In this document: positions 3,043 through 27,165 of the stretch, piece by piece | Numbering within the stretch: the first letter of the stretch is position 1 | Layout of the letters: each line of letters opens with the position of its first letter | Virus record (IMG/VR): IMGVR_UViG_3300025073_000149 | Span: 1 to 27,401 of that record | From: a virus | Reading direction: 5' to 3' (one strand) | Length of the DNA: 27,401 nucleotides | Position numbers and translations under genes: made by a program | Notes under the pieces: generated by a model | What the model saw: the letters and a program-made list of their open reading frames with translations, nothing else | What the model was told of the DNA's origin: nothing | Databases searched by the model: none

Positions 3043-3071
3043 ATTATATAGGACAATTTACCTTTTGTCAA
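3043..3071 (-). promoter_or_regulatory. Sigma-70-type promoter for the SNF2 gene
   Basis: Read on the minus strand: TTGACA (3071-3066), a 17-base spacer, TATAAT (3048-3043). The start codon of the SNF2 gene is only 7 bases past the -10 box, so the transcript would be leaderless or nearly so. The box sequences and the AAAGGTAAA spacer start match four other promoters in the window (8031-8059, 10365-10393, 10840-10868, 11260-11288). Confidence 0.75.
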
Positions 3072-8065: not shown

Positions 8066-9241
8066 CTAGCCCTTTACCACGGCCAGTGGACTTAATTCTA
8101 CTAATATTTCGACCAAATCTTCTTGATTTTTCATAACTTCTTGGACGTCTTTGTATGCACCCGGAGCCTCATCCAAATCATGTTTGCCTCTAATTCCATG
8201 AAGAATCCCTTGATCATCTAACTTTTTAATTTCTTCTTCGAGATTGAGCCGTCTTTCAGCATCTTTCCTTCCCATCTTTCTTCCAGCTCCATGAGAGCAT
8301 GATTTAAAACTTTCAATATTTCCTTTTCCTTTTACGATATACGATTTCGTACCCTGACTGCCCGGCACTATTCCAATGGTATTTTCATCTGCCAAAGTTG
8401 CTCCTTTTCTATGGACCATTACATTCTGACCCATATGGTTTTCAAGTCTAGCGTAGTTGTGGGCGATATTAATTATTGGGTCAAAATATTGAATATCGGT
8501 ATGAAGTGAAAAAATATTTAATATTCGTTCCATCATTAACTTTCTATTGGACAAAGCAAACTCCACGCAATAATTCATCTCTCGAATATATGATTGTCCC
8601 TCCTCCGAATCTATCGGTAAAAAAGCCAAATCCCACTCTCCGGGAATTCTTGAAAACCATTTTGCGTTTAATTCTTTAGCTATTTTATTGTAATGATCGG
8701 CCACTTGTTTACCTAAATTTCTTGACCCAGAATGAATCATGATCCAGATATGTCCATCAGAACCTTTTTGGATTTCGATAAAATGATTGCCTCCACCGAG
8801 AGTACCTATTTGCTTTAATGCAGAAGTATATTGTTCTGAGCAAATGGGATATTCTTTTAATTTCATTCCATAATCAGTTTCAGGAGATATTAATAATTCA
8901 TTTTGAGCCTCCTTGTGATGACCAAACCCAACCGGAATTTGTTTCCTAATTTCTCCCAATATTTTTTTAAGCGCTTCTTTATCAATGTCTGTCAAGGATG
9001 TTTTTACAGCACACATTCCACAGCCGATGTCCACGCCCACAATATTTGGGACTATAATACCCCTAGTCGCAACCACAGCACCTATCGGGGAGCCATAGCC
9101 AACATGGCTATCTGGCATAATTGCAATATGGTTAAACACAGATGGTAAGTTAGCAAGATGTTTTGCTTGTTCCACTGCTCCGTCTTCAATATCTTTTAAC
9201 CACATTTTTATGGGTATTTTTTCAGTTGTTATTATTTTCAT
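8066..9241 (-). CDS. rtcB: RNA-splicing ligase RtcB
   Basis: A 391-residue GTP- and Mn-dependent ligase that joins RNA 3'-phosphate or 2',3'-cyclic phosphate ends to 5'-OH ends. Metal and active-site motifs are complete: PDSHVGYG (43-50), GVDIGCGM with Asp71 and Cys74, GGGNHFIE (149-156), IHSGSRN with His170, IAHNYA with His261, and CSHGAGR (315-321) whose His is the residue guanylylated in the family. I place the start at 9241 because it overlaps the upstream TGA (ATGA) and follows AAATATATG. No archease partner is seen. It closes a five-gene operon. Its likely substrates here include the ends made by the hammerhead at 4947-5015 or cleaved tRNAs. Confidence 0.96.
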   Translation of the reverse strand: MKIITTEKIPIKMWLKDIEDGAVEQAKHLANLPSVFNHIAIMPDSHVGYGSPIGAVVATRGIIVPNIVGVDIGCGMCAVKTSLTDIDKEALKKILGEIRKQIPVGFGHHKEAQNELLISPETDYGMKLKEYPICSEQYTSALKQIGTLGGGNHFIEIQKGSDGHIWIMIHSGSRNLGKQVADHYNKIAKELNAKWFSRIPGEWDLAFLPIDSEEGQSYIREMNYCVEFALSNRKLMMERILNIFSLHTDIQYFDPIINIAHNYARLENHMGQNVMVHRKGATLADENTIGIVPGSQGTKSYIVKGKGNIESFKSCSHGAGRKMGRKDAERRLNLEEEIKKLDDQGILHGIRGKHDLDEAPGAYKDVQEVMKNQEDLVEILVELSPLAVVKG

Positions 9242-9510
9242 ATATTTAAATATTCTTTTAAAAATATCTTCCACTTTTCGTCATCATGCATGGCTAATTT
9301 TTCTATTTCCTTCTCAGTATATTCAATTGCCTCCCAAGTTGTGTCTTCAAAACCATAACAAGAACAATGGCTACCTTCTAAAACGATAAAACTATCTAAT
9401 TTTTCTATTACATATACCCTGCTCATTTCATAATCCCTTGATGATGTATGGGTAAAAATTATATCCTCTGTTTTTACCGTATTAAGATCGAACTTTGCTA
9501 TTTTTTTCAT
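9238..9510 (-). CDS. Conserved phage-type hypothetical protein, 90 aa
   Basis: It contains YVIEKLDSFIVLEGSHCSCY and GFEDTTWEAIEYTEKE, a sequence type I recognise as a recurrent small protein of large phages without known function. The Cys-Ser-Cys and nearby His suggest metal binding. It is coupled by ATGA overlap to rtcB, so it may be made in equal amounts with it. Confidence 0.75.
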   Translation of the reverse strand: MKKIAKFDLNTVKTEDIIFTHTSSRDYEMSRVYVIEKLDSFIVLEGSHCSCYGFEDTTWEAIEYTEKEIEKLAMHDDEKWKIFLKEYLNI

Positions 9511-9518
9511 ATATTTTA

Positions 9519-9824
9519 TTAAAATAAAGTTAATTGTAATTCTGATTTTTTCTTTTTTTCCGGAGTAATTATTTCTCCCTTAGATTTTAGTTCTACATTC
9601 ACAAAATTTCCGTACAAAATCATGGGGTTATTTTTAAACTTAAATTCTTTCTTCATCATCTTTCCAGTCGCTTTCCAGTCATTAGGGTCAACCAACACTC
9701 GCCCGGCCGGAATGGTAATGTCAAGCATGGCCTTAGTTCTAATGGCTTTTTCCACTAATGAACCTCTTAGATAGACGTAGGATCCGTAGAGGGGTTTTCT
9801 AATGTTGAATGTTATGGTTTTCAT
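9519..9824 (-). CDS. Hypothetical protein, 101 aa
   Basis: A mostly beta-rich protein (MKTITFNIRKPLYGSYVYLR; IPAGRVLVDPNDW) ending in a charged EKKKKSELQLTLF tail. The C-terminal QLTLF resembles the QLxLF clamp-binding peptide, by which proteins attach to the replication sliding clamp, but this is a short motif and only suggestive. It is coupled by ATGA overlap to the upstream gene. Confidence 0.65.
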   Translation of the reverse strand: MKTITFNIRKPLYGSYVYLRGSLVEKAIRTKAMLDITIPAGRVLVDPNDWKATGKMMKKEFKFKNNPMILYGNFVNVELKSKGEIITPEKKKKSELQLTLF

Positions 9825-11435: not shown

Positions 11436-12446
11436 ATGAAAGGATTTTTCATCGAAGTATCCAATAATCTACTCGATCCACAGCACTGCAAGCAACTCGG
11501 AGAGGCTGTTTGGTTATTCATGTGGCTAATCGATAAAATAACAGTCATTACCGCCCAGGAAAAAGGCAAAGTTCTTGGTAATAAACCAATAAGATACGAA
11601 GATATTAAGACTGATTTGGGCATTTCTAGGTCAACTTATGGCCGATGGATGGATGTGTTGGAGGATAATGGCTATATAACCACCTTGCGCACTCCTTATG
11701 GAAAGTGTATTGTTGTATTAAAAGCAAAGAAGCGTTTTAATAAAAGTGTTCCTATAGATGATTCAAAAATGACACATCTAATTACAAGTGTCAAAAATGA
11801 AACATCTGGATGTGTCAAGAATGACGCATCAGTGTCCATAAATGACACATCTCACACCCAGAAACGACACATCTCACACCCAGATATGACACATGTAATT
11901 AAGACAATAGCAGTAGACAATACAGAAGACAATAGCAAAAAGATACTTGCGCCTTCGGCGCAAAACGATTTAAATGGTGATAAAAATTTACCAATTAGCT
12001 TTCAAGAAAAAGTAAGTAAATATGAAACTGGAGAAAAGAAAATTACCTACGATATGGTGAATGAAGCTATTGCCTCCTTTCTTCCACTCTTTCCATCAAA
12101 ATTTGTTGGAAAGCAAAAACCATTTGCCATTCCTACCACTAGAGACATAATAAAAATGACCCTACTTGTTTATACTATGGGGGAATTAAAGGAGTTGATA
12201 AATAAATATTTGGAAAAAAGGGAGGAAAAGTTTATACCCCAGGCATCAAATATTTTTGCTTTTTGTTCTAAAGTAGATGCAATAGAGACATATTTGAATA
12301 AAAATAATGGCCTCTGGGCTCAACGGTCAATAAGTACTCCGGAACAACGAGCTGATAGTGATGAATTAATAAAAAAAAGGATAGAGGTTGATAGAGAACA
12401 ACAGCGAAAAGACAAAGAGGAGTGGGAAAGGACTCATTCAAAATAA
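11436..12446 (+). CDS. Replication initiator with internal origin (lambda O-like organisation)
   Basis: A 336-residue protein. Residues 50-100 form a winged helix (YEDIKTDLGISRSTYGRWMDVLEDNGYI, then a TPYGKCIVVLK wing), as in phage and plasmid initiators that bind origin repeats. Residues 110-156 are low-complexity (T, S, H, N rich) because the DNA there is made of iterons. A helical C-terminal domain (about 215-300) could bind the loader or helicase. A DnaC-like gene follows at once. This gene order with the origin inside the initiator gene is that of lambda O/P. No close homologue is recognised by sequence, so the role rests on layout and the winged helix. Confidence 0.72.
   Translation: MKGFFIEVSNNLLDPQHCKQLGEAVWLFMWLIDKITVITAQEKGKVLGNKPIRYEDIKTDLGISRSTYGRWMDVLEDNGYITTLRTPYGKCIVVLKAKKRFNKSVPIDDSKMTHLITSVKNETSGCVKNDASVSINDTSHTQKRHISHPDMTHVIKTIAVDNTEDNSKKILAPSAQNDLNGDKNLPISFQEKVSKYETGEKKITYDMVNEAIASFLPLFPSKFVGKQKPFAIPTTRDIIKMTLLVYTMGELKELINKYLEKREEKFIPQASNIFAFCSKVDAIETYLNKNNGLWAQRSISTPEQRADSDELIKKRIEVDREQQRKDKEEWERTHSK
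11766..11900. repeat. Iteron cluster, likely replication origin
   Basis: About nine copies of TGACACATCT or its inverse lie in 135 bases inside the initiator gene. The clearest are two adjacent 22-base units (11840-11861, 11862-11883) sharing CGACACATCTCACACCCAG or TGACACATCTCACACCCAG. Others are near 11769, 11797, 11820 and 11884, with inverted ones near 11784, 11808 and 11831. A TTGCGCC-TTC-GGCGCAA hairpin and an A-rich stretch follow (from 11949), which could be the unwinding side. Confidence 0.75.
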
Positions 12447-18185: not shown

Positions 18186-18537
18186 GTTTTTTATTTAATT
18201 TAATTTTTTCTTTGAGGAAGTTTTTGTAGTTTTTTTCATGGTTTTTAATGAAGTAGTTAACTTTGTTTCTTAATTCGTTGGCTGTTCGAGTATTAGATGC
18301 TTTTTTCTCAATCTCTGTTTTAATTAATTCTGTCCATAGTGCGGCGTGTTGATCCTCTGATACTATTCCTAAATTATAGGATGTATTGCCCATTGGATTT
18401 TCTAAAGATAAAGACCATTTTTCTTTTTCTATTTTTTGGCAAAGTATCCAATTTGTTGTTCCGTATATTGTATGGACCATCAAGCCTTTTTCTCCATATT
18501 TGGTTATGTGATTTGCTAATCTTTGTATGTTCTTCAT
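18130..18537 (-). CDS. Hypothetical protein, 135 aa
   Basis: The N-terminal half (VHTIYGTTNWILCQKI..WSLSLENPMG) looks like a small mixed fold, and the C-terminal half is a long lysine-rich coiled-coil-like helix. Its ATG overlaps the stop of the VWA gene by 4 bases, so it is coupled to the VWA/MoxR pair and may be a third partner. No family recognised. Confidence 0.65.
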   Translation of the reverse strand: MKNIQRLANHITKYGEKGLMVHTIYGTTNWILCQKIEKEKWSLSLENPMGNTSYNLGIVSEDQHAALWTELIKTEIEKKASNTRTANELRNKVNYFIKNHEKNYKNFLKEKIKLNKKHEKSNLKTKKIIKKLVQR

Positions 18538-20024
18538 GGTGATTTTTTGATAGAAGCTTTGAGAATATCTATGAAAGCTTTACCGATTAATTTTGGATTA
18601 TGTGTGTCTTTTATTGTTATATTTTTTTCTCTTCCAAATGTTTCATCCATATAACTTCTGCAACTTTCCTGCCCAATTGTTATTCCCAAGCATTCTATTC
18701 CTTTATTTACGGCTTTTTTATGGGCTTCTTTCATACTCCATAAATCACTAGAACCATCTGTCAAAACAATCATTATTTTTCTTTCAGCTTTTACGTTATT
18801 TAATTCTTGGGTGCAACTTTCAATGGCTTTGTGTATGTTTGTGTTTGCATTTTCAGCTTTAATTAGACCTTCTTGGTCTGCCATTGTTTCCCATCGTATT
18901 TGTGCTTTTGACATTGGGGCTATTGTTATAGCTTTTGCTCCAAAGATTATCATGCTTCTAGGTACATTCGCATAACGCAATGCTTCTCCTACCATTTGCA
19001 TTGAAGTCATGGCGTAACTGGCCGCACTATTTTCACTATTTCCATGAAACATTGATCTTGAAACATCTGAAGCAATGGCAAAGGCGTAGCTTTGATTGCT
19101 TTTAATAATTCTTTTGGTAAATGGATTTCTGTCTTTTATGATTTTTATGCGGACAAATCTTTTGGCTAATAATTTTCCAGTTCTATATCTGCCTCCAAAT
19201 TCCATGGAATTGTTTCTCTTGAGTATACTTCTTAATTGTTTGCCTATTTGGTTGGCCTGGTCTCCTATTTCTCCAATATATTCCAATTCTGTTGACATAT
19301 TTTCCTCTCCTTTCCACCCTGTTGCTGCTTTTAATTGACTAATAAGTTTTCCTTTAGTTTTTTCCTGATCTTTATCTTCTGTGGCTCTTCCATCTTGGTT
19401 GTTTTGTTGCATTTCTCTTTTTTCATCTTCAGTTAAGGCCCCAGCTTCTTTGAGAAGAAGCTTGACTATTTCATTGACTATTGGCAGTAGGTCTTTGGTG
19501 GCTTTTCTTTCAAGAATTTCTTTTCTATTTTTTGCCATTATTTTTGCTACTTTATTGCCTAATATTTCATATGGCAATATTCCTGTGGCGTATCCTCTAT
19601 TCCAAAATCTGGCTGCGGCATATAATAAGGCTTTTTCATGGACTGATGTATCTTTCATTTTGGGTAGCATTTTTACCAATGTATCTAAGACTTCTTCTCT
19701 GGTTGATTCTAATATTTCTCCGGCATTGGGATAATCATCTTTGATAATGTTTTCAATTGAGATATCTTCTATCATATTCATGGTGGTGAAGGTTATTTCT
19801 TGGTTGGTTGGTGGGAAATTTACTTCAGTTGTGTAATGGATATGTGCTGTTTCGTGAAGCAACAACCCGAGGATATGCTCCTCGGGTAGGCTGTAGATAT
19901 CTTTTTTTGAATAGAAGACAATTCTGTCTTTGATATTGGCTGACCAGCCCCTGCCTTCTTGAAATTTGATTTTATGTTCTTTGGATAGCATTTCTGCAAC
20001 TTTTTGGAATTCTACAAGTTTCAT
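18534..20024 (-). CDS. VWA-domain protein with HExxH motif (CobT-like partner)
   Basis: A 496-residue protein. The N-terminal part has LLLHETAHIHY (HExxH at 57-61) and NMIEDISIENII (83-94), a zinc-peptidase-like site. A charged linker (about 200-240) follows, then a C-terminal VWA domain with a full MIDAS: DVSRS (Asp320, Ser322, Ser324), Thr395 and Asp423 in LTDGSSD. Such proteins pair with MoxR/CobS ATPases to insert metals or remodel proteins. The partner ATPase lies 13 bases upstream. The pairing of a HExxH region and VWA in one chain is also seen in phage CobT-like proteins. The target here is unknown. Confidence 0.88.
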   Translation of the reverse strand: MKLVEFQKVAEMLSKEHKIKFQEGRGWSANIKDRIVFYSKKDIYSLPEEHILGLLLHETAHIHYTTEVNFPPTNQEITFTTMNMIEDISIENIIKDDYPNAGEILESTREEVLDTLVKMLPKMKDTSVHEKALLYAAARFWNRGYATGILPYEILGNKVAKIMAKNRKEILERKATKDLLPIVNEIVKLLLKEAGALTEDEKREMQQNNQDGRATEDKDQEKTKGKLISQLKAATGWKGEENMSTELEYIGEIGDQANQIGKQLRSILKRNNSMEFGGRYRTGKLLAKRFVRIKIIKDRNPFTKRIIKSNQSYAFAIASDVSRSMFHGNSENSAASYAMTSMQMVGEALRYANVPRSMIIFGAKAITIAPMSKAQIRWETMADQEGLIKAENANTNIHKAIESCTQELNNVKAERKIMIVLTDGSSDLWSMKEAHKKAVNKGIECLGITIGQESCRSYMDETFGREKNITIKDTHNPKLIGKAFIDILKASIKKSP

Positions 20025-20037
20025 TTTTTTAATTTTA

Positions 20038-21315
20038 TTAACTTATTTCGAATAGATTTTTAATTATTTCTATTGAATTGTCTAGGTCTTTGTGATGAAG
20101 AATTATGGCGTTTTTGCCTTTATTTGGGCCATTTACTATTTTTACAGCACTAGCAATTCTATCTCCCAGTGTTTCTGAATTATTTTTGATAGCACCATTT
20201 TCTGCATTTTCGTAATAGGTGGCTTCAATTTTAATTTCATCTCCCTTGACAGCATTTTCTCGATTAGTTCCATAATCTGTTATGATAGTGCCTAAATCTT
20301 TTTCTATCATTTCTTTGAAAACATCATCATCTTTAGTTAAGCCTAAATATGTGTTTTGCAGATCTGCATCTATTATATAATTTCCATCTAGTTTTAAATC
20401 ATTGGCAATTTTTATGGCTTTTCTGGTGGCCTTGGCTTTTGTTTTAGTTAATGGCAAATGAAGTTTGGCTATGATTTTTAAAGCTTTATTATCTGCTGTT
20501 TCTAGTTTATTTGAGAAAGCTAATCCTAAGGCTTCCATTGGATTCATAAATTCTGTTAGTCTTAGTGTATTAAGAATGTCTCTTGTGTTAATGACATAAT
20601 CTGAATTTCCTTGTTCTTTAGCGGTTCTAGTTTCATTAGCTAATCCCACTAGTTTAATAGCCATTTCTGATTTAGCTATAGCATTTCCTAAATGATTTTC
20701 AATAATTTCTAATTCTTTGTTTGCTGGTGGAAATTCTGCGTTGATACAAATGGCAAATCTGGATAATAAGGCTTTATTCATTTCTTTGGTTCCTGCATAT
20801 TCTGGTGGATTACAGGTGGCGAAGATTCTAAAGTTTTTATGTCTGTGGACTATTTCTTTATCATCTTTTTCATTAAGGACTAAATATCCATCGTCATCCA
20901 TGATTGATTGTAGAACGAATAAAACCTCTGGCAGGGCAGCGTTGATTTCATCAAGAACTATCCAGTCTCCGCTGCGCATAGCTTCTGTTAGAATTCCATC
21001 AACCCAATATGTTCCTTTGTCATTGATTAATAATCTGCCTACTAATTCATCAGCAGTTGTGCCTCCATTTAAATTTACTCGTCTCAATCCATTTTTAGTT
21101 TGATTGGCTAGAAATCTAATTGCACTCGTTTTGCCAGTTCCGCTTTCTCCAATTAGTAATACAGCTAGGTTATCTCTAACTGCGATAGCCAGGGTTTTCA
21201 TAATATTTCCGTGGTCTACAAATTTGCTGGCTTTTTGTGGCATATAAGGACTTTTTCCGTCTCCGATGGGTATTTCTATTTTTTCATATTTAACTGTCTT
21301 GGTTTTCATTTGCAT
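20038..21315 (-). CDS. MoxR/CobS-like AAA+ ATPase
   Basis: A 425-residue chaperone ATPase. Walker A GESGTGKT (56-63), Walker B VLDEIN (120-125), sensor 1 FATCNPPEYAG (Asn169), arginine finger near Arg186 (LLSRFA). GGTTADELVGR is the CobS/MoxR-type pore loop region. A C-terminal extension (about 330-425) ends with a small beta-rich part (VKIVNGPNKGKNAIILHH) resembling a KOW/SH3 fold. It works with the VWA protein downstream, probably as a hexamer. The target is unknown. Confidence 0.92.
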   Translation of the reverse strand: MQMKTKTVKYEKIEIPIGDGKSPYMPQKASKFVDHGNIMKTLAIAVRDNLAVLLIGESGTGKTSAIRFLANQTKNGLRRVNLNGGTTADELVGRLLINDKGTYWVDGILTEAMRSGDWIVLDEINAALPEVLFVLQSIMDDDGYLVLNEKDDKEIVHRHKNFRIFATCNPPEYAGTKEMNKALLSRFAICINAEFPPANKELEIIENHLGNAIAKSEMAIKLVGLANETRTAKEQGNSDYVINTRDILNTLRLTEFMNPMEALGLAFSNKLETADNKALKIIAKLHLPLTKTKAKATRKAIKIANDLKLDGNYIIDADLQNTYLGLTKDDDVFKEMIEKDLGTIITDYGTNRENAVKGDEIKIEATYYENAENGAIKNNSETLGDRIASAVKIVNGPNKGKNAIILHHKDLDNSIEIIKNLFEIS

Positions 21316-25662: not shown

Positions 25663-25695
25663 AAAGCTGTATACTCTAGACGAATATACAGCTTT
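25663..25695 (-). terminator. Intrinsic terminator
   Basis: A perfect 11-bp stem AAAGCTGTATA/TATACAGCTTT with an 11-base loop. On the minus strand it is followed by more T, so it would end the transcript of the 25712-26053 gene. Confidence 0.8.
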
Positions 25696-25711: not shown

Positions 25712-26053
25712 TTAAGCGACAGGATGAGCTTGTCTCCAATTCTCTGCACCTTGGCGACTATCGGCTATGATTTTATTGGCCTGAACTTCGGGCAATAAAA
25801 CGCTAACAGAGTAATCGGCGTCTCTCTTCTCATCTCTTTTCTTATTAGAGTAGAAGTAGAGGTTAGAACCAGCTTTTAGGGCAATTGGTTCTTGGATATT
25901 TCTATCAGTGCGGAAAGTCAATCCTCCAATAAGGAAGGACTGATTGGCGGAAAATGCCATATCTTCTATTAGTTGGTGGGAAGCAGGAATCATAGTTCCT
26001 TTGTCGGCATTAATCCATGCTTTGCCAATGATGGCTGATTTAACTTGTTCCAT
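25712..26053 (-). CDS. Hypothetical protein, 113 aa
   Basis: A well-formed soluble protein (MEQVKSAIIGKAWINADKGT; SFLIGGLTFRTDRNIQEPIAL; SNLYFYSNKKRDEKRDADYSV) with balanced composition and base use a little richer in GC than its neighbours. It is preceded by a structured region and followed at once by a strong terminator, so it is transcribed alone. That arrangement suggests high expression. No family recognised. Confidence 0.7.
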   Translation of the reverse strand: MEQVKSAIIGKAWINADKGTMIPASHQLIEDMAFSANQSFLIGGLTFRTDRNIQEPIALKAGSNLYFYSNKKRDEKRDADYSVSVLLPEVQANKIIADSRQGAENWRQAHPVA

Positions 26054-26059
26054 ATGTTT

Positions 26060-26740
26060 TTTGTGCTGCTAGGCAGCTTTAAGAAATTAGACTTAGTGTA
26101 GTGGATTTGGGTTACGATACCACTATACGCTTGACCTACGCAAGGTAGGAAGTAATTGTTTAAAGATTGATTTATTGGCACGATTTGAGTTGAAATCCAA
26201 TACTTCACTCTTACGCTATCGTGGTTTTATCAATCTTTCTAACAATCAAATGATGTGTTAGTAGGGAAATGTAATTTAGCCTCGGTTATGGAACATGCTC
26301 CAGATGTCTATATATTAAACATCTTTCCGACATTATATTAGGGCATTACAATTCTTTTATCCCCTATAAACACATCATTGGTGGATTTGGGCTACGATAC
26401 CACTATACGCTTGACCTACGCAAGGTAGGACTTTGTATGGAAGATATATAGCAGAGTTGAAATTGTAGGCAGATAATGGACTATTTTATCTTTTAACATT
26501 TTAAGTCCGTTAGACCAATTTCACACGCTGCTAGCTTTTGCTAAATGCATAGGCTAGAGAAGGCGGCCTAAAGTAGATGCAGGTTAGAATATAAGACTGC
26601 ATACTTTGGCGTTTCTCTGCTATATATCTTCCATTTTGGCGTAGAAGGTAAATCTGAAGACAGAATTGACCAACCTAACCAAACTCTCAACGATATATAT
26701 CGACCTTATATCGTATATCACCACTCAAGTGGTAAAAACC
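26060..26740. ncRNA. Large structured RNA region with two conserved heads and long hairpins
   Basis: This stretch has no convincing gene. Long pairs are 26162-26170 with 26230-26238 (9 bp), 26249-26259 with 26369-26379 (11 bp) and 26437-26456 with 26615-26634 (20 bp, perfect). Within these are shorter nested helices such as TGAAATTG/CAATTTCA, ATGCAG/CTGCAT and GATGT/ACATC. The three hairpin domains are joined by the two copies of the 50-base motif. The transcribed strand is unclear. It resembles in style, but not by recognised sequence, the large ornate RNAs of phages. An origin or packaging region is another possibility. Confidence 0.5.
26101..26430. repeat. Two copies of a 50-base pseudoknot-capable motif
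   Basis: 26101-26150 and 26381-26430 are identical except one base (T/C at the 12th position). Each contains GTGG..CCAC, then CGCTTGACC and CCTAC-GCAAG-GTAGG. The CTTG before the second stem can pair with CAAG in its loop, forming a pseudoknot. The flanks of the two copies are unrelated. The surviving identity suggests selection or a recent copy event. Confidence 0.85.
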
Positions 26741-26744
26741 AATA

Positions 26745-26948
26745 CTATCTAACTCTATAGCGCTCTGCTAGTTGGGCTCTCCACCGTTTGACTATGGCGT
26801 TACCTACGCCCTGGGCAATGACCTGTGCTCTTGTCTTGCCAAAGTAGCCAAACTCTGATACGGCCTCACGCTTATCACCTACAGTAGTGATAACCTTATC
26901 ACATGCATAGGTAATACCTTTCTCTGTGTGGATAGGATAGATAATCAT
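26745..26948 (-). CDS. Possible small basic protein, 67 aa
   Basis: The frame MIIYPIHTEKGITYACDKVI continues to a basic end (AIVKRWRAQLAERYRVR). GC content and codon use are higher than in neighbouring genes, suggesting separate origin or a structural constraint. A longer start at 27008 is possible but the added residues look like read-through of A/T-rich DNA. No family recognised. Confidence 0.45.
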   Translation of the reverse strand: MIIYPIHTEKGITYACDKVITTVGDKREAVSEFGYFGKTRAQVIAQGVGNAIVKRWRAQLAERYRVR

Positions 26949-27165
26949 ACAATTATCATTAAAAATTACACCTATAAAGTGGTAAAAACTATGGAGGATG
27001 GGTAGCAATAAGCCTAGGAAGGGTATGGGGGGTGATTTGGAAAGGTTTAAGATTTGGTTCAGGTGTACTGAAAGGTACCCACACGGAAATTTTCTACTTT
27101 TTTAAAACTTCATACTTATACCCATAACTAGCCCCCCCTACCTACTTTAAACAGAATTTCTATTT

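Follow-up and report, generated by a model that had tools for sequence, protein, structure and literature searches.

Phage genomes contain many structured RNAs without a known role. RAGATH motifs are RNAs near genes associated with twister and hammerhead ribozymes; they are small, conserved and located in phage-like, ribozyme-rich neighborhoods. GOLLD and ROOL RNAs are phage-encoded, large and ornate and have no known function (PMC12286853), traits in which the locus described here resembles them. This locus lies in a 27.4-kb virus record of IMG/VR, the whole of which is referred to as the window. It is built around a repeated element, the head, which consists of two hairpins (P1 and P2) joined by a fixed linker in a motif of ~53 nt and offers a compact, testable example of such RNAs. 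The region comprises the following features:

25663 to 25695, minus strand: intrinsic terminator past the 113-aa gene, with a 14-bp stem and a U tract
25712 to 26053, minus strand: 113-aa gene of a small phage protein family, next downstream of the RNA on the proposed strand
26101 to 26150, minus strand (the proposed RNA strand): head copy 1, based on the repeat, covariation and model R3 (65 bits on the minus strand); in the plus-strand reading it holds P1 (26101-26104/26120-26123), UACGAU in the P1 loop (26113-26118), the linker UAUACGCUUGA (26124-26134) and P2 (26135-26139/26145-26149)
about 26155 to 26248, minus strand: arm A, a long-stem domain that folds, with a stem of ~16 bp
26249 to 26379, minus strand: arm B, a long-stem domain and part of unit 2 (stem 26249-26266/26362-26379, 18 nt at 89%)
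26381 to 26430, minus strand: head copy 2, laid out as copy 1 at +280, based on the repeat and model R3 (63.8 bits)
26437 to 26634, minus strand: arm C, a multi-branched domain that folds and is closed by a perfect 20-bp stem (26437-26456/26615-26634)
26727 to 26735, minus strand: TTACCACTT motif between the 67-aa gene and the RNA
26745 to 26948, minus strand: 67-aa gene, upstream of the RNA on the proposed strand
26977 to 26985, minus strand: second copy of the TTACCACTT motif, preceding the 67-aa gene

A preliminary description of this DNA had proposed three long hairpin domains, one with a perfect 20-bp stem, in a stretch without genes. All three were found (~16 bp, 18 nt at 89% and a perfect 20 bp), and the gap between the two flanking minus-strand genes contains no ORF of at least 90 aa. 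The stretch folds far better than shuffles on both strands, with z-scores of -8.6 (plus) and -9.3. On the minus strand, arm C is located directly 5' of head 2 and forms unit 1 with it, while arm A is located directly 5' of head 1, unit 2 being composed of arms B and A and head 1. The 113-aa protein is confidently predicted (mean pLDDT 88.6) to be mainly beta with a C-terminal helix, and its predicted structure has no fold match in the PDB. The TTACCACTT motif may be a promoter or operator. It is also present at both equivalent places in a related contig (L006), which carries a short minus-strand ORF where the window has its 67-aa gene.

The two heads form a direct repeat of 50 nt with 49 identical positions (98%), differing in a single base. 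Chance can be dismissed as its origin: the 37-nt head core gave no chance matches in 100 shuffles, and the expected number of 49/50 chance matches in the window is ~1e-20. The 30 nt flanking each copy share only 27% identity and are thus unrelated, so the duplicated segment extends from the first base of P1 to one base past P2. P1, P2 and the loop bases are free to differ between viruses, yet they are identical in both window copies, which points to recent duplication or to homogenization by gene conversion. The near identity of the two heads is the product of such a recent event and is not in itself evidence of constraint. The earlier reading of identical heads with unrelated arms holds insofar as both heads are copies of one structured element placed beside arms that are unrelated.

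On the minus strand, the head runs from P2 over UCAAGCGUAUA to P1, the loop of which begins with UAUCGUA, and the linker (GG)UCAAGCGUUU is single-stranded and fixed. In the plus-strand reading, UACGAU in the P1 loop is constant, as is (A)CGCUUGA between P1 and P2; the fixed portion amounts to ~17 nucleotides. P1 with its UACGAU loop, the linker CGCUUGA, P2 and covariation, which together define the motif family, were all found. The P2 loop is variable (GCAAG in the window; CAUAG, AUUAA, UAAA and GCUAU elsewhere), which places the pseudoknot initially proposed for the head (loop CAAG with an upstream CUUG) outside the family definition. This pseudoknot would have a third loop of zero length, and its loop bases are not kept in relatives. 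A further helix (UACGC/GCGUA) closing unit 1 was rejected because unit 2 has no counterpart, and a resemblance of the head to Y RNA or a T-loop was dropped because the flanking bases do not fit.

A search with the MoxR-type ATPase gene of the window led to four related contigs (L004, L005, L006 and L009). Two of these, L004 and L006, retain the 113-aa gene, and the adjoining spot has the same layout with no DNA match to the head. A covariance model had been suggested as a check. The model built from the two window copies alone (R2) finds the head at this syntenic spot in both relatives and in the same orientation, with the best match in 1.4 kb of L006 at 848-886 (E = 0.003) and in 1.4 kb of L004 at 94-143 (E = 0.014). 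A second covariance model (R1), made from hand-aligned heads (A6), recovers the L004 head and two L006 heads far above background, though it was trained on these very sequences. Of the two in L006, the second has a weak score and its linker diverges. In the window, the MoxR-type ATPase gene lies beside that of a VWA protein with an HExxH motif (18534-21315, minus strand), a pair that is kept in related viral contigs and is unusual for a phage. The window also encodes a viral RtcB RNA ligase (8066-9274, minus strand; Pfam E = 1e-111). A link between this gene and the head was dropped, as the related contigs have no RtcB match.

The motif is not restricted to these relatives. A loop-and-linker pattern based on the window plus one relative, in which the stems are not included (TACGATAC-N6-ACGCTTRA), matches 14 contigs in viral_contigs. 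Model R1, made before these contigs were known, yields 42.7 bits for L056, 33-36 bits for L047, L053, L048 and L050, and 25.7 bits for L051. Among the pattern contigs, perfect P1 and P2 stems occur together only in the L047/L048/L050/L053 group, which is phi29-like by its DNA polymerase, in L056, a 146-kb phage with a YonO-like polymerase, and in L004 (identical to L055). In the 98-kb L051, P1 forms on the minus-type strand with one G-U pair and a local P2 is missing; its head adjoins a 113-aa gene homolog (E = 6e-11), making it a probable motif bearer. The match in L054 lies inside a terminase gene (as does that in L057, by identical sequence), the match in L049 lies within a tail-like protein gene, and those in L046 and L058 are in coding frames; other pattern matches checked are within genes or lack stems. 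Exact 24-nt and 18-nt head patterns gave either no match in viral_contigs or two coding chance matches (L007/L008). Nothing credible was returned by blastn of the window against phages and plasmids or of the L048, L056 and L051 RNAs against phages, and model R3 had no significant match in SPbeta, phi3T, Enterocloster, Thomasclavelia, phi29 and four gut phi29-like records.

Nine heads were aligned. All 81 of 81 cells are paired and all nine pairs change on both sides, with a covariation of 1.13 versus 0.27 for shuffled alignments and at most 0.23 for slid versions, but these counts are biased upward, towards structure, because the stems were aligned by manual fitting with N padding and few lineages are covered. 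Cleaner evidence comes from a model-free control, in which only 0.16% of random positions have both P1 and P2. Since unrelated phages carry the motif as well, with stems that covary, a chance duplication in one genome, which the preliminary description had named as the refuting outcome, did not occur. The head thus appears, on sequence grounds, to be a previously uncatalogued structured-RNA motif that is present in unrelated bacterial viruses as well and is presumably transcribed.

Only one of the 81 pairs in the head core is a G-U pair, a scarcity that is not typical of RNA and would also suit a DNA hairpin. Hence, the head may instead act at the DNA level, with its hairpins serving as a recombination or cassette boundary, a protein-binding site or a replication signal. 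Near-identical heads next to unrelated arms, edges that fall exactly at P1 and P2, and stems that fold equally on both strands fit such a role, as does L048, where copies of the repeat TGTCGGGCA enclose the RNA as a cassette and also delimit neighboring genes. Yet, fixed bases in loop and linker with free stems are the usual pattern of an RNA, the motif occurs as a single copy in four lineages, and its orientation to genes and its placement before terminators are consistent. We regard a DNA element as distinctly improbable. The 9-mer TGTCGGGCA itself occurs eight times on one strand of L048 (11922-13982, minus strand), in gaps between small early genes, where 0.06 occurrences are expected; promoter, processing site and cassette boundary are candidate readings.

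The RNA is probably encoded on the minus strand of the window. In its plus-strand reading the head is antiparallel to the flanking genes in the window, L004, L006, the L048 group, L051 and L056, although orientation alone is weak evidence because these represent about four independent lineages. On the minus-type strand, a terminator follows within ~25 nt of the head in L051 (1622-1642, then UUUUGU) and in L056 (9392-9410, then ACCGCUUUUU). It is only on this strand that L051 forms all four of its P1 pairs, one as G-U. In L056, a hammerhead-like ribozyme candidate (9103-9164, plus strand) is located upstream of the head on the proposed strand; it has the full CUGACGA/GAAA core and scores 24 bits, below the Rfam cut-off of 34. 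Against the minus strand, folding energies are alike on both strands, and the extra P1 pairs in both window copies involve G-U when read on the plus strand. In L056, the hairpin of the terminator carries a T tract on the opposite strand as well, and that opposite strand has a strong promoter-like site at 9608. The version first described, in which a pseudoknot heads one or two large RNAs of the plus strand, would agree with the strong plus-strand fold (z = -8.6) and with the G-U pairs that lengthen P1 on that strand in both window copies. However, relatives do not keep the pseudoknot, sigma-70-like promoter sites are fewer than expected (1 versus 8.6), and gene orientation, the L051 and L056 terminators and the hammerhead-like element all favor the other strand, which leaves this version highly improbable and its strand probably wrong.

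Part of the window corresponds to L013 (JAGWAE010000025.1), a virus scaffold binned in a Woesearchaeota-named MAG. Across 371 genomes of that phylum, R3 matches only this scaffold and one site inside a gene. Gene starts in the window are A-rich without a Shine-Dalgarno sequence, and a perfect TTGACA-17-TATAAT (3043-3071) precedes the start of the SNF2 helicase gene by a few bases, features suggesting leaderless transcription in a bacterium. The sigma-70-like promoter and hairpin terminator make a bacterial host more likely, and the bin assignment may be wrong, as the promoters and terminators of L013 look bacterial.

The heads of the window, L004 and L006 directly precede the 113-aa gene on its own strand, with no obvious terminator between, and those of the window and L006 are in tandem. 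This arrangement would suit a cis-acting leader of the downstream gene, either riboswitch-like or a protein-bound operator RNA, with tandem heads as tandem sensors. While homologs of the 113-aa gene adjoin the RNA in L004, L006 and L051, the L051 homolog is on the opposite side, and the L051 head is followed by a terminator. The downstream genes differ in L048 and L056, and no alternative pairing that involves a start site was observed. A leader role therefore appears unlikely.

The motif is intergenic, has covarying stems, occurs in several phage lineages and is absent from Rfam; its transcription, strand, ends and mechanism are what we infer. Because the arms are 5' of P2 on the minus strand, it resembles a 3' domain with variable 5' arms. 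Our preferred, still tentative, reading is that the head, composed of the short hairpin P2, the fixed linker and the hairpin P1, is a conserved RNA motif and most likely the 3' domain of noncoding phage RNAs, whereas the 5' part of each RNA would be a folded arm particular to the phage. In the window, two such units would be placed in tandem upstream of the 113-aa gene (arm C and head 2, then arms B and A and head 1). Conceivably, P2 and P1 present the constant linker and loop to a single shared host factor, which would be either a protein or the ribosome, and the arms supply the phage's own specificity or a scaffold. A putative binding platform is the most economical reading of head function. 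The motif recurs across phages with a protein-primed polymerase, a primase-helicase or a YonO-like polymerase and with genomes of 18 to 146 kb, and such different replication genes and sizes point to a contact partner that their hosts share or that belongs to phage biology in general. Somewhat more doubtful is the broader proposal of an undescribed RNA module in unrelated phages that is self-cleaving or recruits a host factor and of which the 5' arms are swapped between units. The working covariance model makes the motif searchable at once.

Self-cleavage in particular would make the head a new small ribozyme that cuts phage transcripts, its two copies releasing the ~280-nt unit between them. 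Its size, number of fixed bases and two-stem layout are like those of small ribozymes, the copies are in tandem and the linker AAGCGU resembles the pistol core in our own reading of the consensus. The L056 head is moreover surrounded, on the same strand, by two pistols (8424-8489 and 8824-8892, within 1 kb of the hammerhead-like element) and a type-P5 twister (11547-11606, 2.4 kb from that element). On the contrary, no nucleotides are conserved past P1, where a cut would be expected, the head has neither a pseudoknot nor a multi-helix core, and no Rfam ribozyme family matches it even at E ≤ 10. A ribozyme is thus quite unlikely, and we retain the 3' domain of a noncoding RNA as our reading.

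The absence of a recognized RNA family, already noted at the outset, was confirmed, as neither head nor arms match any Rfam 15 family at the gathering threshold and none is credible at E ≤ 10. GOLLD and ROOL are no exception: their Rfam models have no match here at the gathering threshold, the conserved part comprises only ~53 nt and no tRNA island adjoins it in the window. Assembly into a homo-oligomeric nanocage is a further trait by which membership of that class is judged. The L056 head shares with RAGATH RNAs its proximity to pistol, twister and hammerhead-like elements, but no RAGATH model matches it. Pistol (RF02679) has a phage context and, as we read its consensus, a short AGCGU before a hairpin; unlike pistol, the aligned heads have no loop pseudoknot between the first hairpin loop and the segment before AGCGU, no conserved segment after the last stem and no Rfam match. 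Finally, the phi29 packaging RNA comes to mind because the L048 group is phi29-like by its DNA polymerase. However, phi29 itself (EU771092.1) has no R3 match, and the motif is located among small early genes and extends to phages of 98-146 kb.
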